Assembly (NCBI GenBank): GCA_017411305.1 | Contig: JAFQQI010000079.1 | Location: 81,463-133,256 of the forward strand | DNA: 51,794 nt | Direction: 5' to 3' | From: Lachnospiraceae bacterium | GTDB lineage: Bacteria > Bacillota > Clostridia > Lachnospirales > Lachnospiraceae | Shown here: in pieces, positions 18,038 through 33,401 of the stretch | Numbering within the stretch: the first letter of the stretch is position 1 | Layout of the letters: the number at the start of each line of letters is the position of its first letter | Notes under the pieces: model-generated | What the model was told of the DNA's origin: nothing | The model's input: the letters and a program-made list of their open reading frames with translations, nothing else | The model's database searches: none | Translations under genes and position numbers: made by a program

Positions 18038-18051
18038 AGAATATTTAATTT

Positions 18052-18927
18052 ATGAAAAAGGATTTGATGAAATTAATGATTCTGAAGAATAAAAAGGGAT
18101 TATATTGTTTTTCAGCTGGATTAATTATCATAGTAATATTGATTGTCGTAATAACAATTCATAAAGCTGATATTTTTTATGAGTGTTATAAAATATCAAA
18201 ATTACATACTACTGATAAAATAAGTATTTTGATGGAGCAAGCAGTAATTCAAGCTACTGATAATATGTCTAAAATAGACATAGAACAAAAAGACACCTAT
18301 GAAAATGAAACAGAGGATAGTGTTGTTGTATCTATTTTGGGGAAGGAGATATTAAAAGTAGAAAAATCCAGAATTAAAGATGATGTGTATGGAGAATTTC
18401 TTGATAACCAATGGGAATTGGAAGAAATAAATGCAATTTTAATGGCTATAAAGGGAAGATGGGAAGTGGACCAATATATGGGCTTTGTTCCGCAAACATT
18501 ATATGATAGCCACTTATTCAGTGAAGAAAGTTCGGCAATAATAAGTCAGAAAGAAGTAGAAGAACTAAGAGAGGATTATAGAGTAGCTGTTGAATGGGCG
18601 CAGAATAATATTCCTAATGTAACATTTTCGGTAAAAGAAAATTGGTTTGGTGAAGATACAAACAGTAACTACATTTATGTAAATGGAAATATGTGTCCGG
18701 TCAATATAATTTTGAGCGTTGACAGAATGAATGAATACTATCCGGCAATGGTAGATAGGACAACCTATGCGGATGAATTTATTGCTGAATATCCGGTGCT
18801 ATATATTCAGTTTTATATGTGGGAAAATGAGATACAAGGATACGGGAAGGCAACACTGGTTATTACAGATGATAATAGATTTTATTTTTTCAAAGACGGA
18901 GCATTTTATTCTGTCAGAAAAGTTTAG
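18052..18927 (+). CDS. Single-pass membrane protein, unknown function
   Basis: Up to 291 residues with a basic N-terminus, one strong transmembrane helix (about 19-41) and an exported domain. GRWEVDQYMGFV at about 140-151 resembles the GxW strand of lipocalin-like folds seen in several Firmicutes hypotheticals; this is a weak likeness. No family recognised. The ATG at 18052 lacks a ribosome binding site, while ATG 18067 has AAAAGGA five bases before it and may be the true start. It starts fourteen bases after the preceding gene, so the two are probably co-transcribed. Very A/T-rich. Confidence 0.7.
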   Translation: MKKDLMKLMILKNKKGLYCFSAGLIIIVILIVVITIHKADIFYECYKISKLHTTDKISILMEQAVIQATDNMSKIDIEQKDTYENETEDSVVVSILGKEILKVEKSRIKDDVYGEFLDNQWELEEINAILMAIKGRWEVDQYMGFVPQTLYDSHLFSEESSAIISQKEVEELREDYRVAVEWAQNNIPNVTFSVKENWFGEDTNSNYIYVNGNMCPVNIILSVDRMNEYYPAMVDRTTYADEFIAEYPVLYIQFYMWENEIQGYGKATLVITDDNRFYFFKDGAFYSVRKV

Positions 18928-19045
18928 ATAAGTGCAATTAACTGTAATATAGTTGAGCTAAAAATGACAAGGTAAAGTACAAGGAAAGGATTTTCTATGT
19001 GATATGACGTTCCGACATTATTAAATTAACCGGATAGACATGATA

Positions 19046-19090
19046 GTGGTCCATACCACCGGGATGAAAGAAAAGTCGCATGGGATGCGG
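19046..19090 (+). other. Two small hairpins in the leader of the next lipoprotein gene
   Basis: GTGGT-CCAT-ACCAC (19046-19059) and CGCAT-GGG-ATGCG (19077-19089, extendable by a G-U pair) lie in the 178-base gap upstream of the lipoprotein start. The second is eight bases before AAGGG. No known riboswitch class is recognised; no terminator run follows. Confidence 0.35.
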
Positions 19091-19105
19091 TAAAAGGGAA
19101 AATAG

Positions 19106-19960
19106 ATGAATAAAAAATATATTATTGCAATATGCATTCTGTTACTTATATCAGGATGCAAAAATGAAAGAACAGAGACTGATGTTTTACAAGTGATAGA
19201 AGTAAAACAAGGACAAGAGAATGACGAAATAAGACAGGAATTGCATAAAGGAATAGAAAAATTTAACGAAGAGATAAGCGATATTATTTATGAAAATGAA
19301 AAAATAGAGCCCGGACATCCGATAATTTGGTACTATTCATATTCTGGTGAGATGAAGCCGGAAGATTACGATAAAGAAGCATTTAGTGAATGTGAGGGGC
19401 TTATGGATGATATTTCGGAGGCTCTGAAGAATGGAACAATAGAAGAATGGCTGAAGGAAAGAAATATTCCCGGACAGTTATTGACAGAAGACGAGGTACA
19501 ACAGTTAATAAATAATGAAACCTATGGCGTATTAGCTAAGTTTGAAGAGGAACCTTGGCGGCAAAATAGTGGAGAAGCGGATTGGTATATTGTTGAGCAG
19601 ACAGAGGAACGAAAAGATATTGTAGTCAGACAAAGAGAAGAAGGGCAGGATTATGTGTCATATTATTATTTTAAATGCGAGATATTTGAGAATGGAAAGA
19701 TACGTGGAAGAGCTGGAACGAAAAGTGCTGCGGCCGGGACAGAGCATTTTTTTGTAGAACATAACGGATTAAAATATTTACTTGTACCGAAAAGGTCAGC
19801 TGATGGAAGTATGCAAGGAATTGCATTACATTTATATGATATGAGAGACTTTATCGGTGGTGTTTTATACTTTAAGAATACGGGTGAAATTGCTTATTAT
19901 GGCTGTACAACCGAAAAGGATGCTCATCCTATACCGCTATATTTATTGGAAGAGGAATAA
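19106..19960 (+). CDS. Lipoprotein, unknown function
   Basis: A 284-residue protein with signal peptide MNKKYIIAICILLLISGC and lipobox Cys18. The mature part is strongly acidic with no recognised domain; a central charged helix region (about 90-140) precedes a beta-rich C-terminus (from about 165). AAGGG is seven bases before the ATG. It stands in the island of exported unknowns and is preceded by a hairpin-containing gap, so it probably has its own transcript. No homologue in the window. Confidence 0.72.
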   Translation: MNKKYIIAICILLLISGCKNERTETDVLQVIEVKQGQENDEIRQELHKGIEKFNEEISDIIYENEKIEPGHPIIWYYSYSGEMKPEDYDKEAFSECEGLMDDISEALKNGTIEEWLKERNIPGQLLTEDEVQQLINNETYGVLAKFEEEPWRQNSGEADWYIVEQTEERKDIVVRQREEGQDYVSYYYFKCEIFENGKIRGRAGTKSAAAGTEHFFVEHNGLKYLLVPKRSADGSMQGIALHLYDMRDFIGGVLYFKNTGEIAYYGCTTEKDAHPIPLYLLEEE

Positions 19961-20041
19961 TGTTTAAAAGGGTTAAAAACAGCATCTCGTCAAAGCGGAA
20001 ATGTAAATTTATAATATTAAAACAAACGAAAAAGGAGGATT

Positions 20042-21115
20042 ATGATGAAAAAAATATTAATGATTTTGTCAAGGATAGTAGGAGTGCTGCTTATAGCCAT
20101 AGGTTTAGTGTTTTTGGCGCAAGGAATATATATAAGCTGGTATTTCATGCAGAAAGGATATTCGGTGAGTGAGGATATTGCCTTATGCTTTGTTTCTATT
20201 TTGATTATTTATATTGGTTGGCGATTATTGTGTATAAAGAAAACAATACACTACATAAATAAAATTAAGTATTACATACAAAACAGAGAGCAAATCAGCC
20301 TTGAAAAGCAGCGTATCCAATATCAAAAAGAGTTAGCGAGACATGAAGAAGCGCTTGAAAGAGCAGAGCAGATAACGAATGAAAGAAAAATGGTGATTAT
20401 AGAAGGAGAGGAGAGTGAAAATATGCAAAAGAGCAACTTCAAACGAAAAGATGGATATATAGATATTCCTTTGAAAGGGCAACGACAGGAAATTCATGTT
20501 CATTTATGTTCCGATACTGATATTATTTGGAAATTAATTGGTATATTGGCAGCTATTTTGATAGCGGGTTCCTTAATATCGATACCGGTTGTTTGTTCTG
20601 TTATGCCCAAAGAAGATATTGGTATTTTTGCGTGTATTACAATAATTGTCTTTTGGGGAGGTATTTTTTTGTTCTTTGGAGTAAAGGGTCATTTAGACGG
20701 CGATGCCAATGTTATTTTTGCTACAACAGACCAAAAACTGCTTTACAAATTGGACTTAAATTCACTGTTTTCACCTATGACTAATATCCCGACATCTAAA
20801 CTCGGAAGGATGGCATATTTAAATCAAAAAGGAAAAGAGAATGAATCAATTCAAAAGACAATAAATTCATTTTTGGAAGATAGAAAAGCAGTGGAAGAGA
20901 TAATGGATGAACTAATTAATCCTACAAAAAAGGAAAGCAATGTATTAGAAAATGAATTAAAGAAATTAAATTCTCCTGCCTTGAAGAGAAAGCTGTTTGG
21001 AACATATATAAAATATTGGGACGAGAATAAAGAAAAGTGGGAACTGACACTTCTGCCGAAAAAAACCGAAGATTATCATAAGATTTGTGAATTGATTAAA
21101 AGCAGAAAAGCATAG
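20042..21115 (+). CDS. Membrane protein with four hydrophobic segments and a coiled coil
   Basis: 357 residues. Two transmembrane helices (about 5-32 and 42-62), a charged coiled-coil-like stretch (about 72-125, rich in Gln/Glu/Lys), a short beta stretch, two more helices (about 162-186 and 195-218), and a helical cytoplasmic tail ending KSRKA. AGGAGG is three bases before ATG 20042 and six before ATG 20045; either can be the start. No family recognised. It lies between lipoproteins in the island. Confidence 0.7.
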   Translation: MMKKILMILSRIVGVLLIAIGLVFLAQGIYISWYFMQKGYSVSEDIALCFVSILIIYIGWRLLCIKKTIHYINKIKYYIQNREQISLEKQRIQYQKELARHEEALERAEQITNERKMVIIEGEESENMQKSNFKRKDGYIDIPLKGQRQEIHVHLCSDTDIIWKLIGILAAILIAGSLISIPVVCSVMPKEDIGIFACITIIVFWGGIFLFFGVKGHLDGDANVIFATTDQKLLYKLDLNSLFSPMTNIPTSKLGRMAYLNQKGKENESIQKTINSFLEDRKAVEEIMDELINPTKKESNVLENELKKLNSPALKRKLFGTYIKYWDENKEKWELTLLPKKTEDYHKICELIKSRKA

Positions 21116-21118
21116 GAA

Positions 21119-21346
21119 ATGGTATTCGTTCCTGATAAAGAAACATTTCTGACTCCTGTACCTATGCCATCACTAACGCCAAAACCAAAGGGAGATGTCC
21201 CGGAGAAGACATATGAACCAATTAATATTTTTGTAAAAAGTTGGATACAGGCCTATATTGGAAATCATAAGATCGAACAAATGAAATTGAAATGCTGTAT
21301 ACAGATTGATAATACATTTAACTTTGAAGATATAGAGGGTAAATGA
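21119..21346 (+). pseudogene. Probable 5'-deleted paralogue of the following gene
   Basis: A 75-codon frame beginning three bases after the previous stop with a badly spaced AGGA. Its last 38 residues align with the C-terminus of the next gene (KSWIQAYIGN ... IEQMKLKCC against KTWVETHGGI ... IEKWKLKHC, then an identical tail DNTFNFEDIEGK). The N-terminal half (Pro/Thr-rich, TPVPMPSLTPKPK) has no signal peptide or membrane segment and looks like a fused fragment. Most likely a leftover from tandem duplication and deletion; a short expressed protein cannot be excluded. Confidence 0.6.
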
Positions 21347-21350
21347 TTTT
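21305..21350 (+). repeat. 46-bp exact direct repeat, copy 1
   Basis: Identical over 46 bases to 21989-22034. It covers the last codons, the stop and the first bases after the stop of the fragment and of the following gene. Confidence 0.9.
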
Positions 21351-21376
21351 TTACGTAAAATCAAAGAGGGAGCAGG

Positions 21377-22030
21377 ATGGAGAAACAGTGGAAAAAGCAT
21401 AAAAGAATTATATTAGTTGCTATAGGAATACTTCTTTTGATATTTTTTTATAATGTTTTCAGGGTCAACATTTTAGATAGAATTTGCTTTGCAGGACATC
21501 TGAGAGTAAATAAAATATATGATGCATTTGAACACATACCAGAACTTGAAGGAATTAGTGATGAACGTTTAGAAGGAATTTCTTTGTTGGGAGGAAATCT
21601 TTGTGTAGAGTATGATGAACAAATACTGCATGAAAATACGTATATTAAAATACAGTTTCCGGAGAACGTAAACTATGTTATCGTTTGTATGCAAGTGTGG
21701 CTGTCAGATGATGTCTGTACTAATCTGTGGATGAAATACAAACCGGATTTAAGGACATTAATTTACGAGCCGATAGATATTGTAATTCGGAAAAATGAGG
21801 GATTAACAGTTGAACACTATACGGATGAGAATAGTGTATATCAGTACCTGCAAGAATATAATGTGACAGAGAAAGATATTGAAAAGTATCAAGAATATGC
21901 ATTATATGATGTGGTTACCAAAACGTGGGTAGAAACTCATGGCGGAATATTTGATATTGAAAAATGGAAGTTAAAGCATTGTAAAATTATTGATAATACA
22001 TTTAACTTTGAAGATATAGAGGGTAAATGA
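21377..22030 (+). CDS. Single-pass membrane protein, unknown function
   Basis: 217 residues: basic N-terminus, one transmembrane helix (about 10-28), and an exported domain of about 185 residues with no recognised family. AGAGGGAG precedes the ATG. The C-terminal 38 residues are shared with the fragment at 21119-21346. A good terminator follows the stop, closing the island's plus-strand genes. Confidence 0.72.
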   Translation: MEKQWKKHKRIILVAIGILLLIFFYNVFRVNILDRICFAGHLRVNKIYDAFEHIPELEGISDERLEGISLLGGNLCVEYDEQILHENTYIKIQFPENVNYVIVCMQVWLSDDVCTNLWMKYKPDLRTLIYEPIDIVIRKNEGLTVEHYTDENSVYQYLQEYNVTEKDIEKYQEYALYDVVTKTWVETHGGIFDIEKWKLKHCKIIDNTFNFEDIEGK

Positions 22031-22034
22031 TTTT
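21989..22034 (+). repeat. 46-bp exact direct repeat, copy 2
   Basis: Second copy of the 46-base repeat at 21305-21350, start-to-start distance 684 bases. Confidence 0.9.
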
Positions 22035-22036
22035 AG

Positions 22037-22072
22037 GGCAGGGGTGATAATGACCTCTGCCTATTTCTGTTT
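22037..22072 (+). terminator. Intrinsic terminator of the accessory island
   Basis: GGCAGGGGT, seven-base loop, ACCTCTGCC (nine-pair stem with one G-U), followed by a T-rich run (TATTTCTGTTTC). Seven bases after the preceding stop. Confidence 0.75.
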
Positions 22073-22178
22073 CTTTAACTAAGTATTTTCTTGCGTAAAA
22101 TTTTTTGTTAATGTAGCTATGTGTAGGTATTTTTACTAAGGAAATATAAAATGTCAAAAGAATTTAATAAACAATGAA

Positions 22179-22207
22179 TTGCGTTGTGCAATTATTTATC
22201 ATATAAT
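22179..22207 (+). promoter_or_regulatory. Probable promoter of the Rpn-family gene
   Basis: TTGCGT and a consensus TATAAT separated by exactly 17 bases, about 150 bases before the start codon, giving a long leader RNA. Confidence 0.6.
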
Positions 22208-22220
22208 TTCATTAATATCT

Positions 22221-22328
22221 AAGAACGCCGTTCTTGGCATGTCTTATTTATTTTACAGTGCGACTTCATACGCACTGTATCGCGCTTCCTTTGGAAGCTC
22301 CGGCAATTTCGCCGTATTACTCAATTAC
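22221..22328 (+). promoter_or_regulatory. Hairpin-rich leader of the Rpn-family gene
   Basis: Four successive inverted repeats: AAGAAC-GCC-GTTCTT (22221-22235), ACAGTGCG-8-CGCACTGT (22255-22278), GCTTCC-TTT-GGAAGC (22284-22298), CGGC-6-GCCG (22301-22314). TGTCTTATT (22240-22248) and CAATTAC (22322-22328) recur in the same order before the second Rpn gene at 51442. Together with the promoter this fills the 327-base gap before the gene. No known RNA class is recognised. Confidence 0.55.
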
Positions 22329-22357
22329 TTATTATTTTATCGAAAGGAGTTTTGCTT

Positions 22358-23287
22358 ATGGAACAAAACAAACTATCATGCGGTAATGGATTTACTGTAG
22401 ATTCTGCCGCAATGAAAACACCTACTTTTCGGAAACTGGAGGATTTGAATTTAATTGACAACTTCCTCTTTCAGGAAATGTTGACCCAGAAAGAAGACGG
22501 AGAGAAATTTGCCAGAATTCTTCTAAAGACCATTTTAGGAAAACCTATCCGTAACGTGAAAATCGTCCCACAAAAAAATGTTCCCGGAATTGATGTGGAC
22601 AAGCATGGAATACGTCTGGATGCTTACATTGAAGAGGTGGTGGATGACCTAAACGGGGAAATGGCTGATGCCGAAATCATTCCCAGCATTTATGATATTG
22701 AACCTAACAATACTTACGAAAGGAAAACACTTCCCAAGCGTATGCGCTATTATCACGGATTAATCGATACTAAACTTTTATCAGCCGGTGCCGGCTATGA
22801 TAAACTCCCCAATGTATTTATCATCTTCATCTTGCCTTATGACCCTTTTGACAAGAACCGCATGGTTTACACAGTTCAAAACCGCTGTATTGAGGATAAT
22901 ACCATTCCTTACGACGACGGAGCCAGAAAAATCTTTCTATATACCAAAGGATGTGAAGGAAACCCTAGGCAAGAGTTGAAAGATATGCTAAAATACATAG
23001 AGAAATCTACGGCTGAAAATATCACAAATCAGGATATTGCATCCGTCTCGGAGCTTGTAAATAAGGTTAAGAAGCGCAAGGAGGTTGGCATAAATTATAT
23101 GAAATCCTGGGAAATGGAACAAATGGCACGTGATGAAGGACGTAAAGAAGGACGTGATGAAATGCAGGAAAAAATGACTCAATTAACACTGCGGCTTTCT
23201 GAAACGGGGCGTCTTAATGAGCTGGTAAATGCAGCTAAAGATAATGAATACTTGCACAGACTTTTCAAAGAATTTAATTTAGAATAA
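22358..23287 (+). CDS. Rpn family recombination-promoting nuclease / transposase-like protein
   Basis: 309 residues. Rpn proteins (PD-(D/E)XK superfamily, formerly transposase_31) are DNA nucleases linked to RecA-independent recombination and horizontally spread genes. Seen here: the family opening DLNLIDNFLFQEML (about 29-42), GIRLDAYIEEV (about 86-96) giving the core Asp, YDIEPNN (about 110-116) giving the core Glu, LPKRMRYYHGLIDTKLL, and a charged C-terminal arm with ARDEGRKEGRDEM. The ATG at 22358 has GAAAGGAG well placed. The C-terminal third is duplicated, inverted, at 13910-14240. A terminator follows. Confidence 0.85.
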   Translation: MEQNKLSCGNGFTVDSAAMKTPTFRKLEDLNLIDNFLFQEMLTQKEDGEKFARILLKTILGKPIRNVKIVPQKNVPGIDVDKHGIRLDAYIEEVVDDLNGEMADAEIIPSIYDIEPNNTYERKTLPKRMRYYHGLIDTKLLSAGAGYDKLPNVFIIFILPYDPFDKNRMVYTVQNRCIEDNTIPYDDGARKIFLYTKGCEGNPRQELKDMLKYIEKSTAENITNQDIASVSELVNKVKKRKEVGINYMKSWEMEQMARDEGRKEGRDEMQEKMTQLTLRLSETGRLNELVNAAKDNEYLHRLFKEFNLE

Positions 23288-23288
23288 T

Positions 23289-23318
23289 AAAAATAGCCGG
23301 TTTATGCCGGCTATTTTA
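23289..23318. terminator. Intrinsic terminator (bidirectional)
   Basis: AAAATAGCCGG, loop TTTATG, CCGGCTATTTT, between the convergent Rpn gene and the DUF5684 gene; both strands have a T run. Confidence 0.88.
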
Positions 23319-23333
23319 CATATGTACCAATTA

Positions 23334-23711
23334 TTACTGGGGACCAATGTATTCAGCATTACCAAATCCGAGAATTGCAACAAAAATCGGATTTAAGAAT
23401 AATAAACCGAAACCAAAGCCTACGCCCTGACCAAATGCCTTTGCCAGCTTAAAGTACAGCATGATAAGAAAGACAAAGTTTACACAAGGTACAAAGGTAA
23501 GTAAGAATAACCATCCGTTGCCGAATGCAATTTCAAATAAGCAATAATTGTTGTAGAAAGGCACAAGACATCCCCATCCTGGCTTACCTGCTTTTGTAAA
23601 CATCTTCCACATTGCAACAACCATAAAGACGGAGATTGCAAGAACAAAAAGCATATATACAATCATAACACCTGCACCTACTGCCATACCGGCTGCTTCA
23701 TAACTTTCCAT
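23334..23711 (-). CDS. DUF5684-like small membrane protein
   Basis: 125 residues with three or four hydrophobic helices. The motif WKMFTKAGKPGWGCLVPFYNNY between the first and second helices is the mark of DUF5684 (proteins with a signal-peptidase-like topology but unknown function), and AFGQGVGFGFGLLFLNPIF closes the pattern. I chose the ATG at 23711 with GGGAGG about ten bases upstream; the frame extends seven codons further but without a site. It has a strong promoter and an operator-like dyad directly upstream. Confidence 0.82.
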   Translation of the reverse strand: MESYEAAGMAVGAGVMIVYMLFVLAISVFMVVAMWKMFTKAGKPGWGCLVPFYNNYCLFEIAFGNGWLFLLTFVPCVNFVFLIMLYFKLAKAFGQGVGFGFGLLFLNPIFVAILGFGNAEYIGPQ

Positions 23712-23732
23712 ATTAAAGAATCCTCCCTTCAT

Positions 23733-23766
23733 AATGTAGTAAATTAAAGTAATAAATTACTACATT
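23733..23766 (-). promoter_or_regulatory. Operator-like inverted repeat at the transcription start
   Basis: Perfect ten-base arms AATGTAGTAA and TTACTACATT with a fourteen-base centre, lying between the -10 and the ribosome binding site. The GTAGTA/TACTAC half-sites resemble those of BlaI/MecI- or GntR(YtrA)-type repressors; which regulator binds is unknown. Confidence 0.6.
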
Positions 23767-23767
23767 T

Positions 23768-23796
23768 ATAATACGGTATCAGAGTGTTTATGTCAA
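23768..23796 (-). promoter_or_regulatory. Strong sigma-A promoter of the DUF5684 gene
   Basis: On the minus strand, consensus TTGACA (23791-23796), 17-base spacer, TATTAT (23768-23773). Expected start near 23761, inside the right arm of the operator. Confidence 0.75.
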
Positions 23797-23978
23797 TTTC
23801 TAAATTAGAAAAGATAAATGCCAAAGACAAATGTCATGGAAGCCTATACGAATATAAGGAGTTTTACGAAAATAAACGAAAGTAGTAAACAGAGGTACAG
23901 AAAATAAAAAATCCTGTCGATAACTATGTCGCGGCAAAGGTTCCGCAGTATTCATCATATTCAAGGAGGATTCAAAAA

Positions 23979-25163
23979 ATGGATTTTATCTATTCATTAC
24001 TGGGAATGATTCCCAACGTCGTTTTTGCGATTTTATTACTTATAGTTGCGTTTGTGGCAGCTAAAATCGTAAAATCTCTGGTACTTAAACTGTTAAAGGC
24101 AGTAAAGGCTGAAAGCTTTTTAAACAAACTGGGTGTAAAAGATACAGCCACCAACAGTTCTGTTGAATTTGTTGCCAAGCTTGCTTACTTTGTAACATTT
24201 TTATTGTTCTTACCCGGCGTACTTGACAAACTGGGAATGCAGAGTGTATCTTCACCGATTACAGGCATGGTAAATGATTTCCTTGCATTTATTCCTAAGT
24301 TAGTAGCTGCAGGTATTATCATTGCGGTAGGTATGTTTATTGCCAATATCGTAAAGGAACTGTTAGTTCCTGTGTTAAAGGCGATTAAGGTAGATGCCCT
24401 TCAGGAGAAGGCAGGTATTGAAGCATCAGAAAATACAGCATTTTCCAATATTATTGCAAATGTGATTTATGGTGTGATTCTTTTGGTAGTGATTACTTCT
24501 GCACTTGATCAGCTTGGTATTGCAGCAATTTCTGAACCTGCAAGTGCAATTGTTTCTTCTATCTTTGCTATGATTCCTAATGTACTGGGAGCAATAGTAA
24601 TTATTGCTATCGGTGTGATTATTGCGAAGCTGGTAGCTAAATTGCTTGAAAACTTATTGGCAGGTGTGGGCGCTGATACTTTAATCGAAAAGGTAACAGG
24701 TACTCCCGCTAAGAAGTTTGTTCTTTCCAAGGTAATCAGTGCAGTTGTAAAGTATGTTTTAGTAATTGTATTCTTAGTTCAGGGTATTAATGTACTGAAT
24801 CTTCCTGTGCTGACAGAAATCGGCGGAGCAGTAATCGGTTATATGCCTGCTGCTTTAAGTGCAGTGATTATTGTAACCATCGGTCTGTTTGCAGGAAATA
24901 CTGCAGAAGCTGTAATTGCTAAGAAGTTCCCGGAAGCAAAGATGTGTGCAGTAGTTGCTAAGGTTGCAATTTATGTGCTGACAGCATTCCTTTGCTTAAG
25001 CCAGCTTGGTGTTGCTTCCGCAATTGTTGAAACAACCTTTATCCTTATTATTGCTGCTGTTTGTGTAGCGGTTGCTATTGCATTCGGCGTAGGCGGACGT
25101 ACCTTTGCAGCTAATACTCTTGAAAAGTTGGAAAAGAAGATTGACGATAAGGAAACAAAATAA
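23979..25163 (+). CDS. Mechanosensitive-channel-like protein with four TM-helix repeats
   Basis: 394 residues, almost wholly hydrophobic. Four copies of the mechanosensitive ion channel TM-helix unit (PF05552-like) are visible at about 10-50, 106-148, 198-240 and 290-330, each with the pattern IPxxxxAIxIxIxGxxIAxxVxxLL followed by a short amphipathic stretch. The MscS beta-domain and vestibule are absent, as in CmpX-type proteins, so ion conduction is uncertain; a membrane-tension or surface-signalling role is possible. AAGGAGG precedes the ATG. The stop is followed at once by the operator-like region of the next gene. Confidence 0.85.
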   Translation: MDFIYSLLGMIPNVVFAILLLIVAFVAAKIVKSLVLKLLKAVKAESFLNKLGVKDTATNSSVEFVAKLAYFVTFLLFLPGVLDKLGMQSVSSPITGMVNDFLAFIPKLVAAGIIIAVGMFIANIVKELLVPVLKAIKVDALQEKAGIEASENTAFSNIIANVIYGVILLVVITSALDQLGIAAISEPASAIVSSIFAMIPNVLGAIVIIAIGVIIAKLVAKLLENLLAGVGADTLIEKVTGTPAKKFVLSKVISAVVKYVLVIVFLVQGINVLNLPVLTEIGGAVIGYMPAALSAVIIVTIGLFAGNTAEAVIAKKFPEAKMCAVVAKVAIYVLTAFLCLSQLGVASAIVETTFILIIAAVCVAVAIAFGVGGRTFAANTLEKLEKKIDDKETK

Positions 25164-25214
25164 ATCAATAAAATTGATTAAAAAAGGTCATTGATTGCAT
25201 CAATAAAGTATGAT
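25163..25214 (+). promoter_or_regulatory. Paired ATCAAT/ATTGAT dyads and -10 upstream of leuA-araC
   Basis: AATCAAT-AAA-ATTGATT (25163-25179) and ATTGAT-TGC-ATCAAT (25190-25204): two dyads, with direct repeats ATTGATT at 25173 and 25190 (17-base phase) and ATCAATAAA at 25164 and 25199. TATGAT (25209-25214) follows and may be the -10; no good -35 is visible, which fits an activator-dependent promoter. AraC-family half-sites are often direct repeats in nearly this phase, so autoregulation by the fused DNA-binding domain is a reasonable inference. Confidence 0.45.
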
Positions 25215-25224
25215 AGCATTTAAT

Positions 25225-25283
25225 GCGAAAGTGATTTTGCGTCTCTATGGAATGTTGCAAAACGTTTCATAGAGACCTTTTTG
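25225..25283 (+). terminator. Terminator/attenuator directly before leuA-araC
   Basis: A twelve-pair stem, GTCTCTATGGAA (25241-25252) with TTTCATAGAGAC (25265-25276), followed by CTTTTT. The run ends three bases before the GGAGG of the next gene, so that gene's transcript must cross it unless the promoter is within those few bases. GCGAAA (25225-25230), TTTTGC (25235-25240) and GCAAAA in the terminator loop (25257-25262) can pair in competing ways, which would suit attenuation. It may instead simply terminate the upstream gene. Confidence 0.65.
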
Positions 25284-25297
25284 TTGGAGGATGAAAC

Positions 25298-27295
25298 ATG
25301 AACGTAGCGAAGAAGTATGGAAAATATTATTTTATGCCCCCGGTAACAACCTATGACTGGGTGAAAAAGGACACCATTGAAAAGGCACCTATCTGGTGTA
25401 GTGTGGATTTACGCGATGGTAATCAGGCCCTAATCGAACCCATGGATTTGGAAGAAAAACTACAGTTTTTCAAAATGCTGGTGGACATCGGTTTCAAAGA
25501 AATCGAAGTAGGATTCCCGGCAGCTTCTGAAACAGAATATAATTTCATGAGAGCTTTGATTGAAAGAAATATGATTCCCAATGATGTTACCGTGCAGGTA
25601 CTGACACAGGCAAGAGAGCATATTATCAAGAGAACCTTTGAAGCAGTAAAGGGTGCACCCCATGCGGTGATTCATTTGTACAATTCTACTTCTGTTGCGC
25701 AGAGAGAGCAGGTATTCCGTAAGAGTAAGGAAGAAGTAAAGCAGATTGCCATTGACGGTGCACAGCTTTTACAGAAGCTGGCAAGTGAAACAGACGGAAA
25801 CTTTACCTTTGAATACAGTCCCGAAAGCTTCCCCGGTACTGAGGTGGATTATGCCTTGGAAGTATGTAATGCAGTGCTGGATGTATGGAAGCCTACCAAA
25901 GACAATAAGGTAATTATTAATATTCCCACTACGGTACAGATTGCAATGCCCCATGTATTTGCATCCCAGGTGGAATATTTCCATAAGAACTTAAAGTACA
26001 GGGATGCGGTTGTGATCAGCGTACATCCCCACAACGACAGAGGCTGTGGTGTCAGTGATGCAGAGCTTGGTGTGCTGGCAGGTGCAGACAGAGTGGAAGG
26101 TACTTTGTTCGGAAACGGTGAAAGAACAGGAAACGTGGATATTATTACCCTTGCTATGAACATGGTGTGTCACGGTGTAGAACCGGGACTTGATTTTTCC
26201 AATATTTCCGAAATCCGTGAAACCTATGAAACCTTAACAGGGATGAAGGTGTATGAGCGTGCACCTTATGCCGGTGATTTGGTGTTTACTGCCTTCTCCG
26301 GTTCCCATCAGGATGCTATCTCCAAGGGAATGGCATGGTGGAAGGAAGGTAAGAGCGACGGTCGCTGGGATGTACCGTATTTGCCCATTGATCCCCAGGA
26401 TTTGGGCCGCGAATATGAATCCGATGTTATCCGTATCAACAGCCAGTCCGGTAAGGGCGGCATTGCCTTTATCTTAAAGCAGAACTTTGGTATGTCTCTG
26501 CCTGATAAGATGAAGGAAGAGGTAGGTTATTTAATGAAGGGGGTTTCCGATAAGAAGCACAGCGAGCTTGCCCCTTCTGATGTTTATCAGATTTTCAAGG
26601 ATACTTATATTGACCAGAGAGAGGTATTTAACGTACCGGAGTGTCACTTTAAGCAGATAGAAGACGGTATTTCCGCTGAGGTTACCATCGAACAGAATAA
26701 GGAAAGACGTGTGATTGAAGCATCCGGTAACGGACGTTTGGATGCTGTCAGCAACGCAGTGAAGATGTACTTCGGTATCAGCTACGAGCTTTCTGTTTAT
26801 GAAGAGCATGCGGTATCCCGCGGTTCCTCCTCTAAGGCTGCGGCTTATGTAGGCATTGTGAAGGATGGCAAAATGTACTGGGGCGTTGGTATTGATGAAG
26901 ATATTATCAAGAGTTCCATTGCTGCTTTGGTATCTGCAGGGAATAAACTTGCGCAAAGTGAGAATATTAAAGAGGGCAGAGAAGAACGCATTGTTGACAT
27001 CATGAATTATGTGAAAAATCACTATAAAAATGTAACCTTGGATGAACTGGCAGAGAACTTTAATCTTTCCAAGCCTTATCTTTCCAAGTACATTAAGGAA
27101 AATGCCGGCATTACCTTCCAGGAAGCGGTAAAACAGGCAAGAATGAAAAAGGCAAGAGCCATGCTGAAGGGAACCAATCAGACGGTAGAGAGCATTGCAT
27201 CTTATGTGGGATATGAAAATGTAGAGCATTTCAACCGTTTGTTTAAAAAGTCCTACGGTATCACACCCATTCAGTTCAGAAGAGAAAGCAGATAA
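25298..27295 (+). CDS. leuA: 2-isopropylmalate synthase fused to an AraC-type DNA-binding domain
   Basis: A 665-residue fusion. Residues 1-about 430 are the long-form (actinobacterial-like) LeuA, which condenses acetyl-CoA and 2-ketoisovalerate: [13 protein letters not shown] at 38-50, [11 protein letters not shown], and the metal-binding HPHND at 243-247, [18 protein letters not shown]. Residues about 430-552 match the C-terminal LeuA regulatory domain that binds leucine. From about 560 an AraC/XylS domain follows without a break: first helix-turn-helix [20 protein letters not shown] (about 580-599), second [27 protein letters not shown] (about 631-657). A normal LeuA of this class ends near 560. 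GGAGG precedes the ATG. A trigger-enzyme role, reporting leucine to DNA, is inference. Confidence 0.93.
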
Positions 27296-27314
27296 ACAGA
27301 AAGGACGATGTTCC

Positions 27315-28481
27315 ATGAGAATCAGAGGCGCGGCTGTTTACACAGAAAAAGGTGTTTTTGAAGAAAAGGACATCTATGTCAGAGAAGGCATTTTTGCGGC
27401 AGAACCTATAGGAAATGCGGCAGAATGCGAAGAAGAATACGATGCCGGGGGCTGCTATGCAGTCCCCGGTTTTACCGATATTCATTTCCATGGCTGTATG
27501 GGCAAAGATTTTTGTGACGGGACGGTAGAAGCCATTGAGACGATGGCGGCTTATCAGGCAAGAATAGGGGTAACCTGCATAGTTCCTGCCACCATGACCA
27601 TGGATGAGGATACGCTCTTTGCTACGGCTTTGGCAGCAGCAGAGTTTCAGAGAAGACAGACCATGGGTGAGTTTGCAGAAACTGCAGCTTTGTGCGGTAT
27701 CCATATGGAAGGACCGTTTGTTTCTAAGGAAAAGGCAGGAGCACAAAATCCTAAATTTGTAAAACTGCCGGATCAGAGGTTATATGAAGCCATGCAGGAA
27801 AAAAGCGGAGATATGGTGAAGCTGGTAGCAATTGCACCGGAGCTTTCCGGGGCAGAGGCATTTATCAGACAAAATCACGAAAAATCAGTGATGTCAGTGG
27901 CACATACTACTGCTGATTATGATACAGCAAAAAAAGCATTTGACGCAGGGGCAACCCATGTGACCCATTTGTACAACGCCATGCCCGGCCTTTCCCACAG
28001 GCAGCCGGGGGTAATCGGAGCAGCGGCAGATGCAGGCGTAGAGGCAGAGCTTATCTGTGACGGAATACATGTACATCCCTCAGCGGTGCGTATGGCACTT
28101 AAGCTGTTTGGTGAAGATAGGGTAATCTTTATCAGTGACAGTATGATGGCAACGGGACTTGCAGAGGGTAACTATTCCTTGGGAGGCCAGCCGGTTACGG
28201 TGTCAGGAAAGCTGGCAACCTTAAAGGACGGAACCATAGCCGGCTCTGTAAGTAATCTGACAGACTGTGTTCGATGTGCAGTCCTTGAGATGGGAATACC
28301 ACTGACCATTGCAGTCAAGTGTGCCGCAGAAAATCCGACCAAGTGCGTCGGTATCTATGACAAGTATGGAAGCATCACACAGGGGAAGGTTGCCAATCTG
28401 GTACTTTTGGACAAAAAGGATTTATCCGTAAGGCAGGTATTTTTGCAGGGGAAGCCATTGTTACAGGATGGAAGAAAATAA
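27315..28481 (+). CDS. nagA: N-acetylglucosamine-6-phosphate deacetylase
   Basis: A 388-residue amidohydrolase that removes acetate from GlcNAc-6-phosphate in amino-sugar catabolism and wall recycling. Metal and active-site motifs are seen in order: DIHFHG (H57, H59), HMEGPF (about 130-135, metal Glu), SVAHTTAD, THLYNAMP, CDGIHVHP, and the catalytic Asp in FISDSMM. AAAGGA is about ten bases before the ATG. It begins nineteen bases after leuA-araC and may be co-transcribed, though there is no obvious metabolic tie; nagB is not in the window. Confidence 0.94.
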   Translation: MRIRGAAVYTEKGVFEEKDIYVREGIFAAEPIGNAAECEEEYDAGGCYAVPGFTDIHFHGCMGKDFCDGTVEAIETMAAYQARIGVTCIVPATMTMDEDTLFATALAAAEFQRRQTMGEFAETAALCGIHMEGPFVSKEKAGAQNPKFVKLPDQRLYEAMQEKSGDMVKLVAIAPELSGAEAFIRQNHEKSVMSVAHTTADYDTAKKAFDAGATHVTHLYNAMPGLSHRQPGVIGAAADAGVEAELICDGIHVHPSAVRMALKLFGEDRVIFISDSMMATGLAEGNYSLGGQPVTVSGKLATLKDGTIAGSVSNLTDCVRCAVLEMGIPLTIAVKCAAENPTKCVGIYDKYGSITQGKVANLVLLDKKDLSVRQVFLQGKPLLQDGRK

Positions 28482-28492
28482 ATGGCAAACAG

Positions 28493-28521
28493 TTGAAAAA
28501 ACAGAATGTTTCATGTACAAT
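28493..28521 (+). promoter_or_regulatory. Probable promoter of the small membrane protein pair
   Basis: TTGAAA and TACAAT separated by 17 bases, 33 bases before the first small gene. Confidence 0.6.
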
Positions 28522-28554
28522 AGGAACAGATAGAAACGGAAAGGAAGCATAAGT

Positions 28555-28674
28555 ATGGAATTCTTTTTATTGGCAGCAGGATTTGTGGTAATTATCATAC
28601 CCGTAGTAATTGCAGTAGTTGCATCAGTAGTTTCCGCTGTAGCGGCTGAGCAGGACGATGCTTCCGAACAGTAA
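28555..28674 (+). CDS. 39-residue small membrane protein
   Basis: A very short gene: MEFFLLAAGFVV, one long hydrophobic helix (about 3-31) and a hydrophilic tail EQDDASEQ. AAAGGAAG lies about ten bases before the ATG and a good promoter precedes it, which supports translation. The next gene starts 22 bases after its stop. No family recognised; size and topology recall regulatory membrane peptides, but nothing more can be said. Confidence 0.6.
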   Translation: MEFFLLAAGFVVIIIPVVIAVVASVVSAVAAEQDDASEQ

Positions 28675-28696
28675 ATTTTTTTTGGGAGGTGTAAAC

Positions 28697-28885
28697 ATGG
28701 GATTTCCGCAAAGAAGTGATAATATTATGCAGAACATGGCCCGGGAAGTAAATTTACTGGAGCATGACCGCAGGCAGGAAGCAGAAAAGCCGATCAGCGA
28801 AAAGCAGATGAAAATGGGTAAGATTGCTTTTGGTGTAATGCTTGGAGTTCTCGTGCTCATTATTGCATTGTTTGTATTTCTTTAA
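28697..28885 (+). CDS. 62-residue tail-anchored small membrane protein
   Basis: MGFPQRSDNIMQNMAR begins a charged, helical cytoplasmic part of about 43 residues; one hydrophobic helix (about 44-62) ends the protein. GGGAGGTG six bases before the ATG decides the start at 28697 over an in-frame upstream ATG at 28658. A terminator follows. Likely co-transcribed with the 39-residue gene. Function unknown. Confidence 0.72.
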   Translation: MGFPQRSDNIMQNMAREVNLLEHDRRQEAEKPISEKQMKMGKIAFGVMLGVLVLIIALFVFL

Positions 28886-28898
28886 AAAGTAAGGAACG

Positions 28899-28926
28899 AA
28901 GGCGTATCGGAAGATGCGCCTTTTTT
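28899..28926 (+). terminator. Intrinsic terminator
   Basis: AAGGCGTATC, loop GGAA, GATGCGCCTT, then TTTTTT. Confidence 0.9.
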
Positions 28927-28996
28927 ATAAAAATTCATTAAGAAAAAGTAGGAATGTACAGTTTACAAAAGTAGTCCTGAAGAGAGATAAGAGAAA

Positions 28997-31900
28997 ATGG
29001 AAAAAGAGATTATAACAAGGAAAAATATTGAAAATAAAGAAATTCGATATGATGCTTTTATCAGCTACCGGCATACGCAACCGGATATGTTTGTAGCACA
29101 GACATTGCACCGTGAGCTGGAGGCATTCCGACTACCGAAGCATATAAAGAAAAAGCTGGGCCCTGAGGTCAAAACAAAAATAAACAGAATATTTCGGGAT
29201 AAGGATGAGTTACCCCTTGCGTCTAATCTGGCAGACCCCATTACAGAAGCCCTTTCCGGCTCCGAATATCTGATAGTAATCTGTTCTCCGAGATTGCCGG
29301 AATCCTTGTGGTGTCGTAAAGAGATACAAACCTTTATCTCCATGCATGGAAGGGAAAAGGTTTTTGCAGTATTGATAGAGGGGGAGCCAAAGGAGTCCTT
29401 TCCGGAAGAACTTCTGTACAAGGAAGAAGCAGTACCGCAGGAGGATGGCAGCGTAACGATTGTGAAGGTGCCTGTTGAACCCCTTGCTGCGGACGTCAGA
29501 GGAAACAGTAATAAAGAGAGAAAGAAAAAAATTAAAGAGGAAATGCTCCGACTTTTGGCACCTATGTTTGGTTGTACCTATGATGAATTAAGGCAGCGTC
29601 ACAGGGAACGCAAAATCAGACGTATGCTTACTTTAGCAGCAGCGGTATCTGCAGTTTGTTTTGTTTTTGGCGCAATCAGCAGCTCCATGGCGCTCAGAAT
29701 ACATGGACAAAATCAGGAAATCAAGAGTCAGAGCATGCAGATAGAAGAGCAGAATGCCTGGATAGAAGCCCAATATCAGGAATCGTTAAAGATAAATGCC
29801 GGATTGCAGGCGGATGAGGCATTCAGACTACTGGAGGAAGGAGACAGAATCGCAGCAGTTAAGACATCCGTAGAGGCATTGACAGGAGGAGAAGACTTTC
29901 AGTCAGAAGGTAACAAGGAGTTTCCTTATGTGCCTGCGGCAGAATATGCTCTTAGTGAAAGTCTTGGAGTATATTATGATGGGTGGAGTATAGTGCCGGA
30001 GTTTCTGTTAAAGCATGACACAAACGTTGTCTGGATGAAAACTTCTCCTGACCAAAAAACAATCCTTACGGTAGATGAAGCAAAGGAAATCTATCTTTGG
30101 GAGGCAGAAAGCGGCAAGAATTTATGTAAGATAGAAGACTATACGAATCAAGAGTATTTGGATGAAGAGAGAATTATTTTTCAAGATAATAAACGGATTG
30201 CGATTCTGACCCGGACAGGCGTTGATGTTCTTGACCTGTCTGGTCAAAAGATTGAAGAAATAGCGGTTGGGGAAGGAGATGAGTGGCGGTTTGCGGGACT
30301 TGTCGGAGATGGTGCAGGCAGTCATTTCCTTTATATTCTGCCGGAACAGGTAATTGTGTATGACAGCCAATCGTATACAGAGCTTTACAGAATTGAAGCA
30401 AATGAAGAGATGAAATTTACACATGAGGCAGTGATTGATCCGGAAGAAAAGGTAATTGCTCTTTCTATGGAATCGGAAACTATGTACTATCAGTCAATTC
30501 ATACCGGTGGTGTGAAAGAAAGACCGGCTGAAGCATTGGTGGCAGACTTAGATACCGGAGAAATAATAAATGAGTATTCTTTAGGCTATGAGTGGGTAGA
30601 AAAGCTGTTCTTTGCAGAAGGAATGCTTTACATGCTCAGCAATTCCAACCTTGAAAATGCAGTGAAGGATGACGGGACAGAGTCAGGTATCTTTGCGTAT
30701 GCGCATGGCAGACTGACCGGCTGCGATTTGCGTAGCGGCGGAGAAGTAAAGTGGTGTTATGACAGTGAAAGCTCTTTGAGAGATATAAATGTAAGCCGTA
30801 CCGCAGACAATGATACGGTTATGCTTGTGTCAGGAGAGGAAATTATTGCGCTTCATGGTACTGACGGAAGTTTGATTGACCGTACCGGTTGCGGAGGTAT
30901 GGTAGTGCAGCTGGATGTGATTGAGGGAACAGCCAATTTCACGGTTTATACCGAAAACGGAAGGCAAATATATGTTTACATGACGAAAGACGGCATTAAT
31001 TTTGTGGAATTTGAAGGAAAATTCCGGAATAATTCTGATGAAGTAAAGCAGATTGCGTTTGCCGAAGGCGGAAAAATCCTGTTACTGCCATATCGTTCCA
31101 ATTCGGTTACGGTAATGGATTCCCTTTTGGGAGAGCAGTACGAAATGTTTATGGAGGGGGTCAGCACAAGCAGGAATTGTATAGATGCTGACGGCCTTGA
31201 GAATCACTTGTTATTTGTCAGTGAAGATAAAATGTCTTTGATATGTGTGAAAGAAGACGGAACGCAGGTGTGGCGTAAGGAGTTGCAGGAGCCTGTAACG
31301 GCAGTCATGTTTTTTACGGAGACATCATCTAAAATAGTGATGCAACAGGGTGACCGGATTACTGTGTATCATAAGCATACAGGGGAAGAGATACTATCCT
31401 ATGTGCTGGACGCCGATGAATATAATATACGGCTTGCGGGAGCCTACATCGAAGTCATGGACTATTTGACGATAAAGCGATATGATACCATGACCGGTGA
31501 GCTGTTATACGAAAAGGATTTGTCTGAAATTTATGCCTATGGAGATGCGCTGGCATGGGATGCAGGAGGTATTGCAATTGCCTCCGTTGAAGAAGGAATT
31601 GTCAGACTGTATGATGAAGAACTGAAGGAAATACTTGGAGAAATGGAGCTGAATACTCCGTTTATTGACAAATTGTTTTTAGCAGCAGGAACCGCTTGCG
31701 GAGCGCATGGACAACCGCAGGATATGGAACTTTATGTCAGCTATAAGGATGGTAAATTGGAGCATTATTATTTCAATGGCGGCTCGGGGTTTCAGCTTCG
31801 TGAGACGATTGACGGATTCGAAGATCCGATTGAAATAATCGAAAGCGGATTTGTGGCAAATAAAATGGAAGCATATGAAATAAGAGATGCTGAAATTACG

Positions 31901-32032
31901 GCAAAGATACCCGGATTTTTGGCGCGCTCCCATAGTTATTACTATGTTGCGGGTTCCGGAGAAGAGATTTGGCGGGTGCCTGTTTATTCTGTTGATATGT
32001 TACTTGAAGAGGCAGAACCGGTGTTACAGTAA
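28997..32032 (+). CDS. TIR domain - transmembrane - beta-propeller protein
   Basis: 1011 residues. An N-terminal TIR domain (about 17-165) opens with YDAFISYRH and contains RDKDELPLASNL and WCRKE at 105-109; E109 is at the position of the NAD-cleaving Glu of enzymatic TIR domains. A basic stretch (RHRERKIRRM) precedes one transmembrane helix (about 210-231), then a coiled coil (about 236-282). The remaining 700 residues are beta-rich with repeated VWMKTSPDQKTILTVD- and LYDEELKEIL-like blades, fitting a WD40/PQQ-like propeller. A membrane-tethered sensor with a cytoplasmic NADase or signalling head is the likely design; a defence role is possible but no defence partner genes are adjacent. Only a weak GAGAG site precedes the ATG. 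Confidence 0.85.
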   Translation: MEKEIITRKNIENKEIRYDAFISYRHTQPDMFVAQTLHRELEAFRLPKHIKKKLGPEVKTKINRIFRDKDELPLASNLADPITEALSGSEYLIVICSPRLPESLWCRKEIQTFISMHGREKVFAVLIEGEPKESFPEELLYKEEAVPQEDGSVTIVKVPVEPLAADVRGNSNKERKKKIKEEMLRLLAPMFGCTYDELRQRHRERKIRRMLTLAAAVSAVCFVFGAISSSMALRIHGQNQEIKSQSMQIEEQNAWIEAQYQESLKINAGLQADEAFRLLEEGDRIAAVKTSVEALTGGEDFQSEGNKEFPYVPAAEYALSESLGVYYDGWSIVPEFLLKHDTNVVWMKTSPDQKTILTVDEAKEIYLWEAESGKNLCKIEDYTNQEYLDEERIIFQDNKRIAILTRTGVDVLDLSGQKIEEIAVGEGDEWRFAGLVGDGAGSHFLYILPEQVIVYDSQSYTELYRIEANEEMKFTHEAVIDPEEKVIALSMESETMYYQSIHTGGVKERPAEALVADLDTGEIINEYSLGYEWVEKLFFAEGMLYMLSNSNLENAVKDDGTESGIFAYAHGRLTGCDLRSGGEVKWCYDSESSLRDINVSRTADNDTVMLVSGEEIIALHGTDGSLIDRTGCGGMVVQLDVIEGTANFTVYTENGRQIYVYMTKDGINFVEFEGKFRNNSDEVKQIAFAEGGKILLLPYRSNSVTVMDSLLGEQYEMFMEGVSTSRNCIDADGLENHLLFVSEDKMSLICVKEDGTQVWRKELQEPVTAVMFFTETSSKIVMQQGDRITVYHKHTGEEILSYVLDADEYNIRLAGAYIEVMDYLTIKRYDTMTGELLYEKDLSEIYAYGDALAWDAGGIAIASVEEGIVRLYDEELKEILGEMELNTPFIDKLFLAAGTACGAHGQPQDMELYVSYKDGKLEHYYFNGGSGFQLRETIDGFEDPIEIIESGFVANKMEAYEIRDAEITAKIPGFLARSHSYYYVAGSGEEIWRVPVYSVDMLLEEAEPVLQ

Positions 32033-32147
32033 GAACAGCCATACCTGTTTATGAATTTTTTAGATTACTTAAGATTGGTTTTATTGATTTTGAGGTATGA
32101 CGGAAGTAGGATAATAGTAAAAAGAAATCTGAAAGGTGTGACCTATT

Positions 32148-32540
32148 TTGAGAGAAAAATTTTACAGATTTATGGCAGGCAGATATGGCAATGACAGGCT
32201 GAATCAGGTAATTATGATTGTGGCAATGACAGCTCTTATTATTTCCTTTTTCGGACCGAGGATTTTTTATTTATTTGCGCTGCTATGTCTGATTTACGGT
32301 TATTTTCGGATGTTCTCCAGAAATACCTACAAAAGAAGCATGGAGAATAATAAATATTTACAGTGGGAATATAAAGTTAAGCAGTTTTTTGCAAAAAAGA
32401 GAAGAGAAATGCAGCAGGCGAAGACCCACCATATCTACAGATGTCCTTCCTGCAAGCAAAAAATCAGGGTGCCCAGAGGAAAGGGCAGGATTGAAATCAG
32501 ATGTCCTAAATGCGGTCAGACCTTTATTAAGAAAAGTTAA
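32148..32540 (+). CDS. Membrane protein with C-terminal zinc ribbon
   Basis: 130 residues, TTG start with AAAGGTG about nine bases upstream (an ATG at 32172 would remove the first eight residues and is poorly spaced). Two hydrophobic segments (about 20-36 and 38-53), a basic region, then a zinc ribbon CPSC (about 102-105) ... CPKC (about 121-124) followed by GQTFIKK. Such MJ0042-like ribbons are usually regulatory or structural. The next gene follows after twelve bases, so these three genes (to 34188) form an operon with a J-domain protein, hinting at a shared, unknown membrane function. Confidence 0.8.
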   Translation: MREKFYRFMAGRYGNDRLNQVIMIVAMTALIISFFGPRIFYLFALLCLIYGYFRMFSRNTYKRSMENNKYLQWEYKVKQFFAKKRREMQQAKTHHIYRCPSCKQKIRVPRGKGRIEIRCPKCGQTFIKKS

Positions 32541-32552
32541 CAGGAGAGAAGC

Positions 32553-33401
32553 ATGTTTGGATATGTTGTAATCAATAAAGGAGAGATGAAGTTCAAGGAA
32601 TTTGATGTGTACCAATCCTATTACTGCGGACTTTGCCGTGCATTAAAGGAAAGATACGGTGTCCTTGGACAGATTAGTCTTACGTATGATATGACCTTTC
32701 TGGTAATGCTTTTGACCAGCTTGTATGAACCGGAGACCGCAAAAGGAATGACCAAATGTATTGCCCATCCTTTTGAAAAGCATCAGACCAGACGAAATGA
32801 GTTTTCTGCATACGGTGCGGATATGAATGTTCTGTTTTCCTACTATAAGTGCTTGGATGATTGGCAGGATGATAAAAAGATACTAAAGCTTGCTTATAGT
32901 AAGCTGATGAAAAAATCCTATCATAAAATCAATGGTTTTTATGTTGACAAAGTAAAAAAGATGGATGCACTGATGCGGGAATTCGGACAAAAAGAGCAGG
33001 AAAATATCGATGATATTGACAAAATGGCAGGCTTGTTCGGAGAACTGATGGGCGAAATGTTCGTGGTAAAGCAGGACGAATGGGAGGATAATCTAAGAAG
33101 GCTTGGAACCTATCTGGGGAAATTTATTTATTTACTGGATGCTTATGAGGATGTGGAAGAGGACATCAAGTCCGGCAGATTTAATCCGTTAAAGAGCAGA
33201 TATGAGAATCCGGATTTTGAAGAAGAGATTAAGACCATTTTAACCATGATGATGGCAGGCTGTTGTCAGGAATTTGAAAAGCTGCCGATTATCGATCATA
33301 TAGAAATACTCAGGAATATTCTTTATTCCGGTGTGTGGTACCGTTATGAAGCGGTGCATGAAAAAAGGAAAGTAAAAGGACAGGAATCAGAACATGCGTG
33401 A
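32553..33401 (+). CDS. DUF5685 family protein
   Basis: 282 residues, soluble and helical. The N-terminus [36 protein letters not shown] with the CGLC pair (about 28-31) is the family mark of DUF5685. DDWQDD (about 107-112) and [11 protein letters not shown] (about 200-210) place aspartates as in all-alpha prenyltransferase-like folds; this is a resemblance, not proof. AGGAGAG precedes the ATG. It overlaps the J-domain gene by eight bases, indicating translational coupling and probably a chaperone-client or complex relation. Confidence 0.82.

Follow-up and report, generated by a model that had tools for sequence, protein, structure and literature searches.

The window analysed here is a stretch of 51,794 nucleotides from the genome of a Lachnospiraceae bacterium. 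On its forward strand, positions 25298..27295 hold a leuA-araC fusion gene: a single frame of 665 residues, running from an ATG to a TAA with no stop inside, that encodes a complete type-2 LeuA (2-isopropylmalate synthase) and a complete AraC-type DNA-binding domain. Residues 1-420 (25298..26557) form the catalytic barrel and post-catalytic subdomains of LeuA (Pfam HMGL-like at 31-308, IPMS_D2 at 327-394), and residues 423-551 (26564..26950) form the LeuA_dimer leucine-binding regulatory domain (Pfam, 93.6 bits). A linker of residues 555-562 (26960..26983), drawn from the AlphaFold2 (AF2) model and a gapless alignment, leads to the AraC-type domain with two helix-turn-helix (HTH) motifs at residues 563-665 (26984..27292), which is recognized by Pfam, by its helices in the AF2 model and by Foldseek. 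HTH_18 matches residues 584-662 with 75.5 bits (cut-off 33.6), and HTH_AraC residues 624-662 with 48.7 bits (cut-off 26.6). The top NCBIfam match, at 807 bits (cut-off 455), is NF002991, 2-isopropylmalate synthase, which spans residues 5-549; with the equivalog TIGR00970 the score is 670 bits and stays below the cut-off of 697. A preliminary description of this DNA had read LeuA and an AraC domain at about residues 560-662 in one uninterrupted frame. Both points agree with the stop-free frame, with Pfam domains above their cut-offs and reaching residue 662, and with predicted helices at 563-664.

The genome of the window is a fragmented bin (123 contigs, 82.6% complete), which would leave room for an assembly or annotation artefact, but we regard this explanation as having a negligible chance of being correct. 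The full-length fusion is present in 26 of the 36 other genomes of the genus; absence from all close relatives would, in the preliminary description, have pointed to an assembly error. Matches across the junction were found in 96 of the 396 genomes of a family sample, our own included, and fused genes are also present in two genomes titled as complete (L058 and L075). Two frames joined by chance are excluded as well, since the frame is conserved and the linker has one length throughout: all 53 aligned fused proteins (53/53) are free of gaps over residues 549-568. The fusion is real.

In the remainder of the genus, one genome (G019) carries the gene in two pieces on two contigs, and nine genomes lack it, an absence confirmed on re-check. 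In the family sample, 95 of the matches lie in frames longer than 660 residues and one (G438) in a 392-residue frame near a contig end. The fusion was found in 44 of 294 genomes of an order sample, all within the same family; in 14 of 393 of a class sample, three of them outside the family (G726, G840, G842); and in 4 of 398 of a phylum sample, one outside the family (G1280), these samples and the family sample overlapping one another. The named scan comprised 80 of the 257 loci found. Sixty-seven of the 80 belong to Lachnospiraceae in NCBI terms and the others to Eubacterium (4), Clostridium, Oscillibacter or no family. LeuA and HTH share one frame at 79 of the 80 named loci, among them L113, which is without the usual LeuA N-terminus. 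The exception is L048: at L048:1392-4402 the fused leuA is broken at the HPHND codons by an insertion that cuts off the start of LeuA. The break adjoins a 555-residue serine-recombinase-like frame (identified by eye), and a mobile element seems to have integrated into leuA-araC at this locus. Its coordinates agree with those of the two-piece gene of G019.

All 53 fused proteins (53/53) fall into one clade of the LeuA tree with an SH-aLRT support of 98, in a quick tree of 78 selected LeuA-domain rows calculated without bootstrap. The same clade holds the unfused L119/L120 and L121 and the split L115 inside it, and the split L116 at its base. This topology reads as one origin of the fusion followed by several losses. 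In L115 and L116 the HTH is encoded next to leuA in a frame of its own, and the two frames overlap (L116:4192-6215 and L115:2721-4779); the L116 overlap contains a run of eight A at which slippage could occur. One LeuA-type protein is found in the bin of the window among the matches listed, and ten fusion-bearing genomes of the genus also list an unfused LeuA with about 50% identity.

Among solved structures, those of LeuA from Mycobacterium tuberculosis (Mtb) come nearest to the enzyme half (518 bits). Mtb LeuA (PDB 1sr9/3fig) has the same layout of catalytic region, subdomains and leucine-binding domain and provides the top Foldseek matches; unlike the fused protein, which continues for about 110 residues as the AraC domain, it ends after the regulatory domain. 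Mtb residue positions were mapped by eye on the pairwise alignment and counted over the 53 fused rows. Residues D40, H243, H245, N279, H337 and Y361, which correspond to metal, substrate and acetyl-CoA residues, are invariant in 53/53 fused proteins, as is the residue matching Mtb R80, which we take to be a member of the active site. The Mtb counterparts of the six, D81, H285, H287, N321, H379 and Y410, are named in the structural source, and our check spans these six of its list, E309 and G320 lying outside it (PMC2704214). The source also places G531, G533, L535, A536, V551, Y554, A558, A565 and A567 in the leucine site (PMC2704214). Five of these nine positions are invariant in 53/53 fused proteins (G477, G479, L481, Y501 and A514), and A505 is found in 46/53. 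Mtb V551 is replaced by L in 52/53 and A565 by S in 47/53. The one clear difference is D482, which takes the place of Mtb A536 in 52/53. Judged from this alignment, most of the leucine-site residues are kept in the fused family.

In the AF2 model the AraC half consists of seven helices at residues 563-664, with pLDDT values of 81-89 over successive blocks and 73 in the last block, and the linker connects it with the final helix of the regulatory domain. The model as a whole has a mean pLDDT of 74 and its barrel is weak in parts, so we make no claim on contacts between domains. Foldseek aligns the HTH part with 3lsg at an rmsd of 1.6 Å and with 6swi at 1.7 Å, and many residues of the recognition helices are invariant or almost so in the 53 rows. 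The median dN/dS of the HTH is 0.021 in a close group and 0.035 over all intact proteins of the genus, next to 0.034 for the catalytic domain; these are rough values, as synonymous sites are near saturation and the HTH medians come from just 15/28 and 72/276 pairs. Neither half is damaged, and both are subject to strong purifying selection. The clade of G006, G013 and G020 (L030, L029 and L031) differs: its HTH dN/dS is 0.27 and that of the catalytic part 0.036 (three pairs). The HTH_18 scores of these three proteins have fallen to 39-64 bits, still above the cut-off of 33.6, compared with 75-85 in four intact proteins.

Upstream of the fusion gene, a 29-bp AT-rich element at 25156..25184 on the forward strand (core TCAATAAAATTGATTAAA at 25165-25182) is, from a position weight matrix (PWM) and its conservation, the putative operator of the fused HTH. 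A putative -10 hexamer of the leuA promoter, TATGAT, follows at 25209..25214 on the same strand; it was identified by eye and is alike in relatives. Between the two we recognized no -35 hexamer by eye, and no sigma-70-like site was reported at this promoter at the threshold of the tool. The arrangement is conserved 5' of fused leuA genes as an AT-rich block, TAAAATAAATCAATAAAATTGATTAAAAT, with a TATGAT-like -10 downstream. The PWM was built from 17 unique sites of the genus and thresholded at 99% of a Markov null. In the window, the operator scores 40.7 bits, being itself a training site, and the next match 13.8.

Sites above the null lie within 600 nt of the gene at 40 of 50 fused loci and within 1000 nt at 43 of 50, the null having been made for 600 nt and the matches of L033, L105 and L114 lying at 600-1000 nt. 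When the nine training loci among the 50 are left out, the same PWM finds a site at 34 of 41. A site is also present at both split loci (2/2), at none of the three with a degenerate HTH (0/3), and at 1 of 23 unfused loci, most of which extend no further than 600 nt upstream. The PWM gives no leuA site at L119, L120 and L121, the unfused members of the fused clade, nor above the null at seven of the 50 fused loci, six of which belong to one Acetatifactor-like clade. The LeuA tree offers four independent pairs that differ in the HTH, too few for a p below 0.05; the site follows the HTH in 3.7 of them on average and opposes it in 0.0. As thresholded, the site needs 14 changes on the tree versus 4 for the HTH, and is thus more labile than the domain. 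In a broader set, from which proteins identical to training or earlier rows and loci with less than 150 nt upstream were excluded, 54 of 77 named fused loci reach a score of at least 8. A fused leuA together with the site, scoring 23-27, is also present in four genomes from other families (L142-L145); either gene transfer or contamination of the bins may account for them.

A search for the strict core in the 37 genomes of the genus gave 24 matches, at most one per genome, against 1 for a reversed control pattern. Nineteen lie just 5' of the fused leuA and one, in G010, at a fitting contig edge; of the remaining four, three come from genomes that lack the fusion and one from a different place in G035. 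With G010 counted, whose copy is on another contig than the gene, the strict core occurs in 20 of the 28 fusion-bearing genomes of the genus. It was not found in G002, G005, G006, G011, G013, G019, G020 and G035, the promoter side of G019 being outside the comparison. Weaker variants of the site are present in G005, G011 and G035 (L037, L038 and L047; 28, 20 and 31 bits) and a poor one in G002 (L049, 7 bits). The leuA-promoter element largely comes and goes with the HTH domain.

Between this promoter and the gene lies an intrinsic terminator (25241..25276, forward strand) with a 16-bp stem and a T run (fold z = -6.2), which ends about 20 bases 5' of the leuA start codon. In 11 of 19 loci searched, a T-box leader (RF00230) at the Rfam gathering score stands between the site and leuA. 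Its specifier was read by eye in three alignments as CUC, CUG and CUC. In these relatives a hairpin similar to the terminator stands 3' of the T-box core, whereas the window has the terminator hairpin only, and RF00230 has no match up to E 1 in positions 18000-33000. The terminator seems to be what is left of the 3' end of a T-box leader whose core is gone. With the T-box gone and the hairpin remaining, the RNA layer appears lost or crippled in the window and the site kept.

A related element lies at a second promoter. When one mismatch is allowed, ATCAANNAAATNGATTAAA matches the genome of the window twice, at leuA and at ilvN, and a reversed control pattern once. The ilvN site (G000:C105:216610) is directly 5' of ilvN-ilvC, seven bases before a TTGACT, the two genes having been named by eye from their translations; copies with two mismatches occupy the same position in G007 and G026. 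A loose pattern, written after the sequences had been viewed, finds the ilvN element in all 24 genomes counted as intact (24/24), in none of the three whose HTH is degenerate (0/3) and in three of the nine that lack the fusion (3/9; Fisher p = 2e-6 for the table, with kinship ignored). This comparison covers 36 of the 37 genomes, as the assembly of G015 is without ilvN, and counts G019 with its interrupted gene as intact. The PWM narrows the contrast: it finds the element in 16 of 24 intact genomes, one of these copies being at a different place, in none of the three degenerate ones (0/3) and in one of the nine without fusion (1/9). In the degenerate-HTH genomes the ilvN promoter remains and the element is gone; both the leuA site and the ilvN site are thus absent from G006, G013 and G020, where the HTH evolves fast. 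On the ilv tree, 0.8 of three independent pairs agree and 2.2 are without a difference. The three fusion-less genomes that keep the ilvN element are G012, G027 and G031 (91, 94 and 78% complete), and G027 sits on a long branch. The reason may be that the fusion was lost recently, that it falls into a gap of the assembly, or that the site has a different owner. Among 30 loci examined outside the genus, most show no ilvN element. A search of eight genomes with two mismatches gave 30 matches, eight of them at leuA, compared with 11 for the reversed control. Ten of the 22 non-leuA matches were viewed: three are at ilvN, two at a glutamate-dehydrogenase-like gene, and the others are unshared. The glutamate-dehydrogenase-like gene (identified by eye) has an identical two-mismatch site about 190 nt upstream in L178 and L181 (G016 and G030), and is a possible third target.

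The preliminary description had supposed that an enzyme, a leucine sensor and a DNA-binding output are united in one chain. Part of this is supported, as both halves are intact and the element at the leuA promoter (in the genus also that at ilvNC) largely tracks the HTH; with the leucine site mostly kept, the whole appears the likeliest reading of these sequences. Combining the architecture, its conservation, the selection on the HTH and the co-occurrence of site and HTH, we infer DNA binding, leucine as effector and activation. We favour, with reasonable though far from full confidence, a bifunctional enzyme-regulator (a 'trigger enzyme') that activates leuA and ilvNC at low leucine. The fusion protein probably also controls genes of its own pathway, and most likely it would sense leucine for the transcription of leuA and ilvNC. 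In the proposed mechanism, the LeuA dimer would make 2-isopropylmalate under feedback inhibition by leucine through the regulatory domain, and would carry two AraC domains, each tied to a leucine-binding domain by the linker of constant length. These would bind the 29-bp AT-rich operator just 5' of the leuA promoter and the related operator just 5' of the ilvN-ilvC -35 box. A position at the -35 region is typical of AraC-type activators. Since the site abuts a missing -35 at leuA and sits just above a good one at ilvN, we propose activation at low leucine: leuA and ilvNC would probably be activated when leucine is scarce, and leucine in the regulatory domain would weaken the activation. A single leucine site could thereby govern how active the enzyme is and how much LeuA and 2-ketoisovalerate, its substrate (the IlvC branch), are supplied. 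Below the same promoter, many relatives have a T-box, of Leu type where it was read by eye, which would add a check at the RNA level. A fuller version, in which this one-protein, two-output leucine controller had a single origin, is present in about a quarter of the family genomes sampled, often stands above a Leu-type T-box and loses its operators as the domain decays, has in our judgement an even chance of being right.

The protein could also bind DNA as proposed and respond to 2-ketoisovalerate, acetyl-CoA, isopropylmalate or the catalytic state rather than to leucine. The second target, ilvN-ilvC, supplies 2-ketoisovalerate, the checked catalytic residues are invariant in 53/53, and in E. 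coli, IlvY mediates the induction of ilvC by its substrates. The HTH is, however, attached to the leucine-binding domain and not to the barrel, and most leucine-site residues are kept; we consider such a signal unlikely, if still a serious competitor. A more doubtful possibility is that the sites belong to another regulator, or are UP elements of the promoters, and that the fused HTH binds elsewhere or acts otherwise. They are AT-rich and adjoin the -35 position, three non-fusion genomes keep the ilvN element, and the leuA site changes more often on the tree than the HTH. Against another owner, the leuA site is missing where the HTH was lost or degenerated in separate lineages (L119/L120, L121 and L029-L031) and kept in both split loci, and its strict form occurs at most once per genus genome, 19 or 20 of these 24 copies preceding a fused leuA.

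It is very improbable, finally, that the HTH is a passenger domain that serves no DNA function and has, for example, a structural role. Its divergence in G006, G013 and G020, with LeuA conserved, indicates that the exact HTH sequence is dispensable to LeuA. A passenger would nevertheless hardly be expected to show a median dN/dS of 0.021-0.035 elsewhere or (nearly) invariant recognition-helix residues, and the DNA sites go missing in step with the HTH. We thus retain the enzyme-regulator that activates leuA and ilvNC at low leucine as the preferred explanation.

The preliminary description held that AraC-family proteins are normally without an enzyme partner. The DNA-repair protein Ada combines an enzyme half with an AraC domain, so the pairing is not wholly new. 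A correction is also needed in that DNA-binding enzymes which regulate their own genes have precedents: PutA and BirA are enzymes that regulate their own operons and are described as repressors (PMC6978683). Like them, LeuA-AraC is predicted to be a single chain that acts both as an enzyme and as a transcriptional regulator of the pathway to which it belongs; it differs in being a feedback-inhibited biosynthetic enzyme joined to an AraC domain, with sites in a predicted activator position. By analogy, the device is of a known kind, and the combination of its parts is new. With the AraC/XylS regulators (C-terminal domains of AraC, MarA, YesN and AraT) it shares the two-HTH, seven-helix domain and a predicted promoter-adjacent site, whereas here that domain is joined to an entire biosynthetic enzyme, which has an allosteric site itself. 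We found no paper on a LeuA-AraC fusion listed in an open-access library, which was the scope of the search, subscription papers and domain listings of protein databases being outside it. The fusion offers a testable case of how the joining of a single domain can make a transcription factor of an allosteric enzyme, in which the same ligand site would serve two outputs, and points to a way in which branched-chain amino acid synthesis may be controlled across a large group of gut Clostridia. It provides a candidate operator and two candidate target promoters, and the lineages with a degenerate, split or lost HTH supply natural controls.

Some other features of the window lie close to the fusion gene. 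On the minus strand within it, 26492-26581 gives a sub-threshold match to RAGATH-35 (24.5 bits, cut-off 38.9, E 0.48), probably by chance. An amidohydrolase (nagA-like) gene at 27315-28481 begins 19 nt past the fusion stop codon, a spacing at which it may be co-transcribed with the fusion. Further downstream, 28997-32032 encodes a protein of 1011 residues with an N-terminal TIR domain and beta-propeller matches, which may be a defence or signalling protein.
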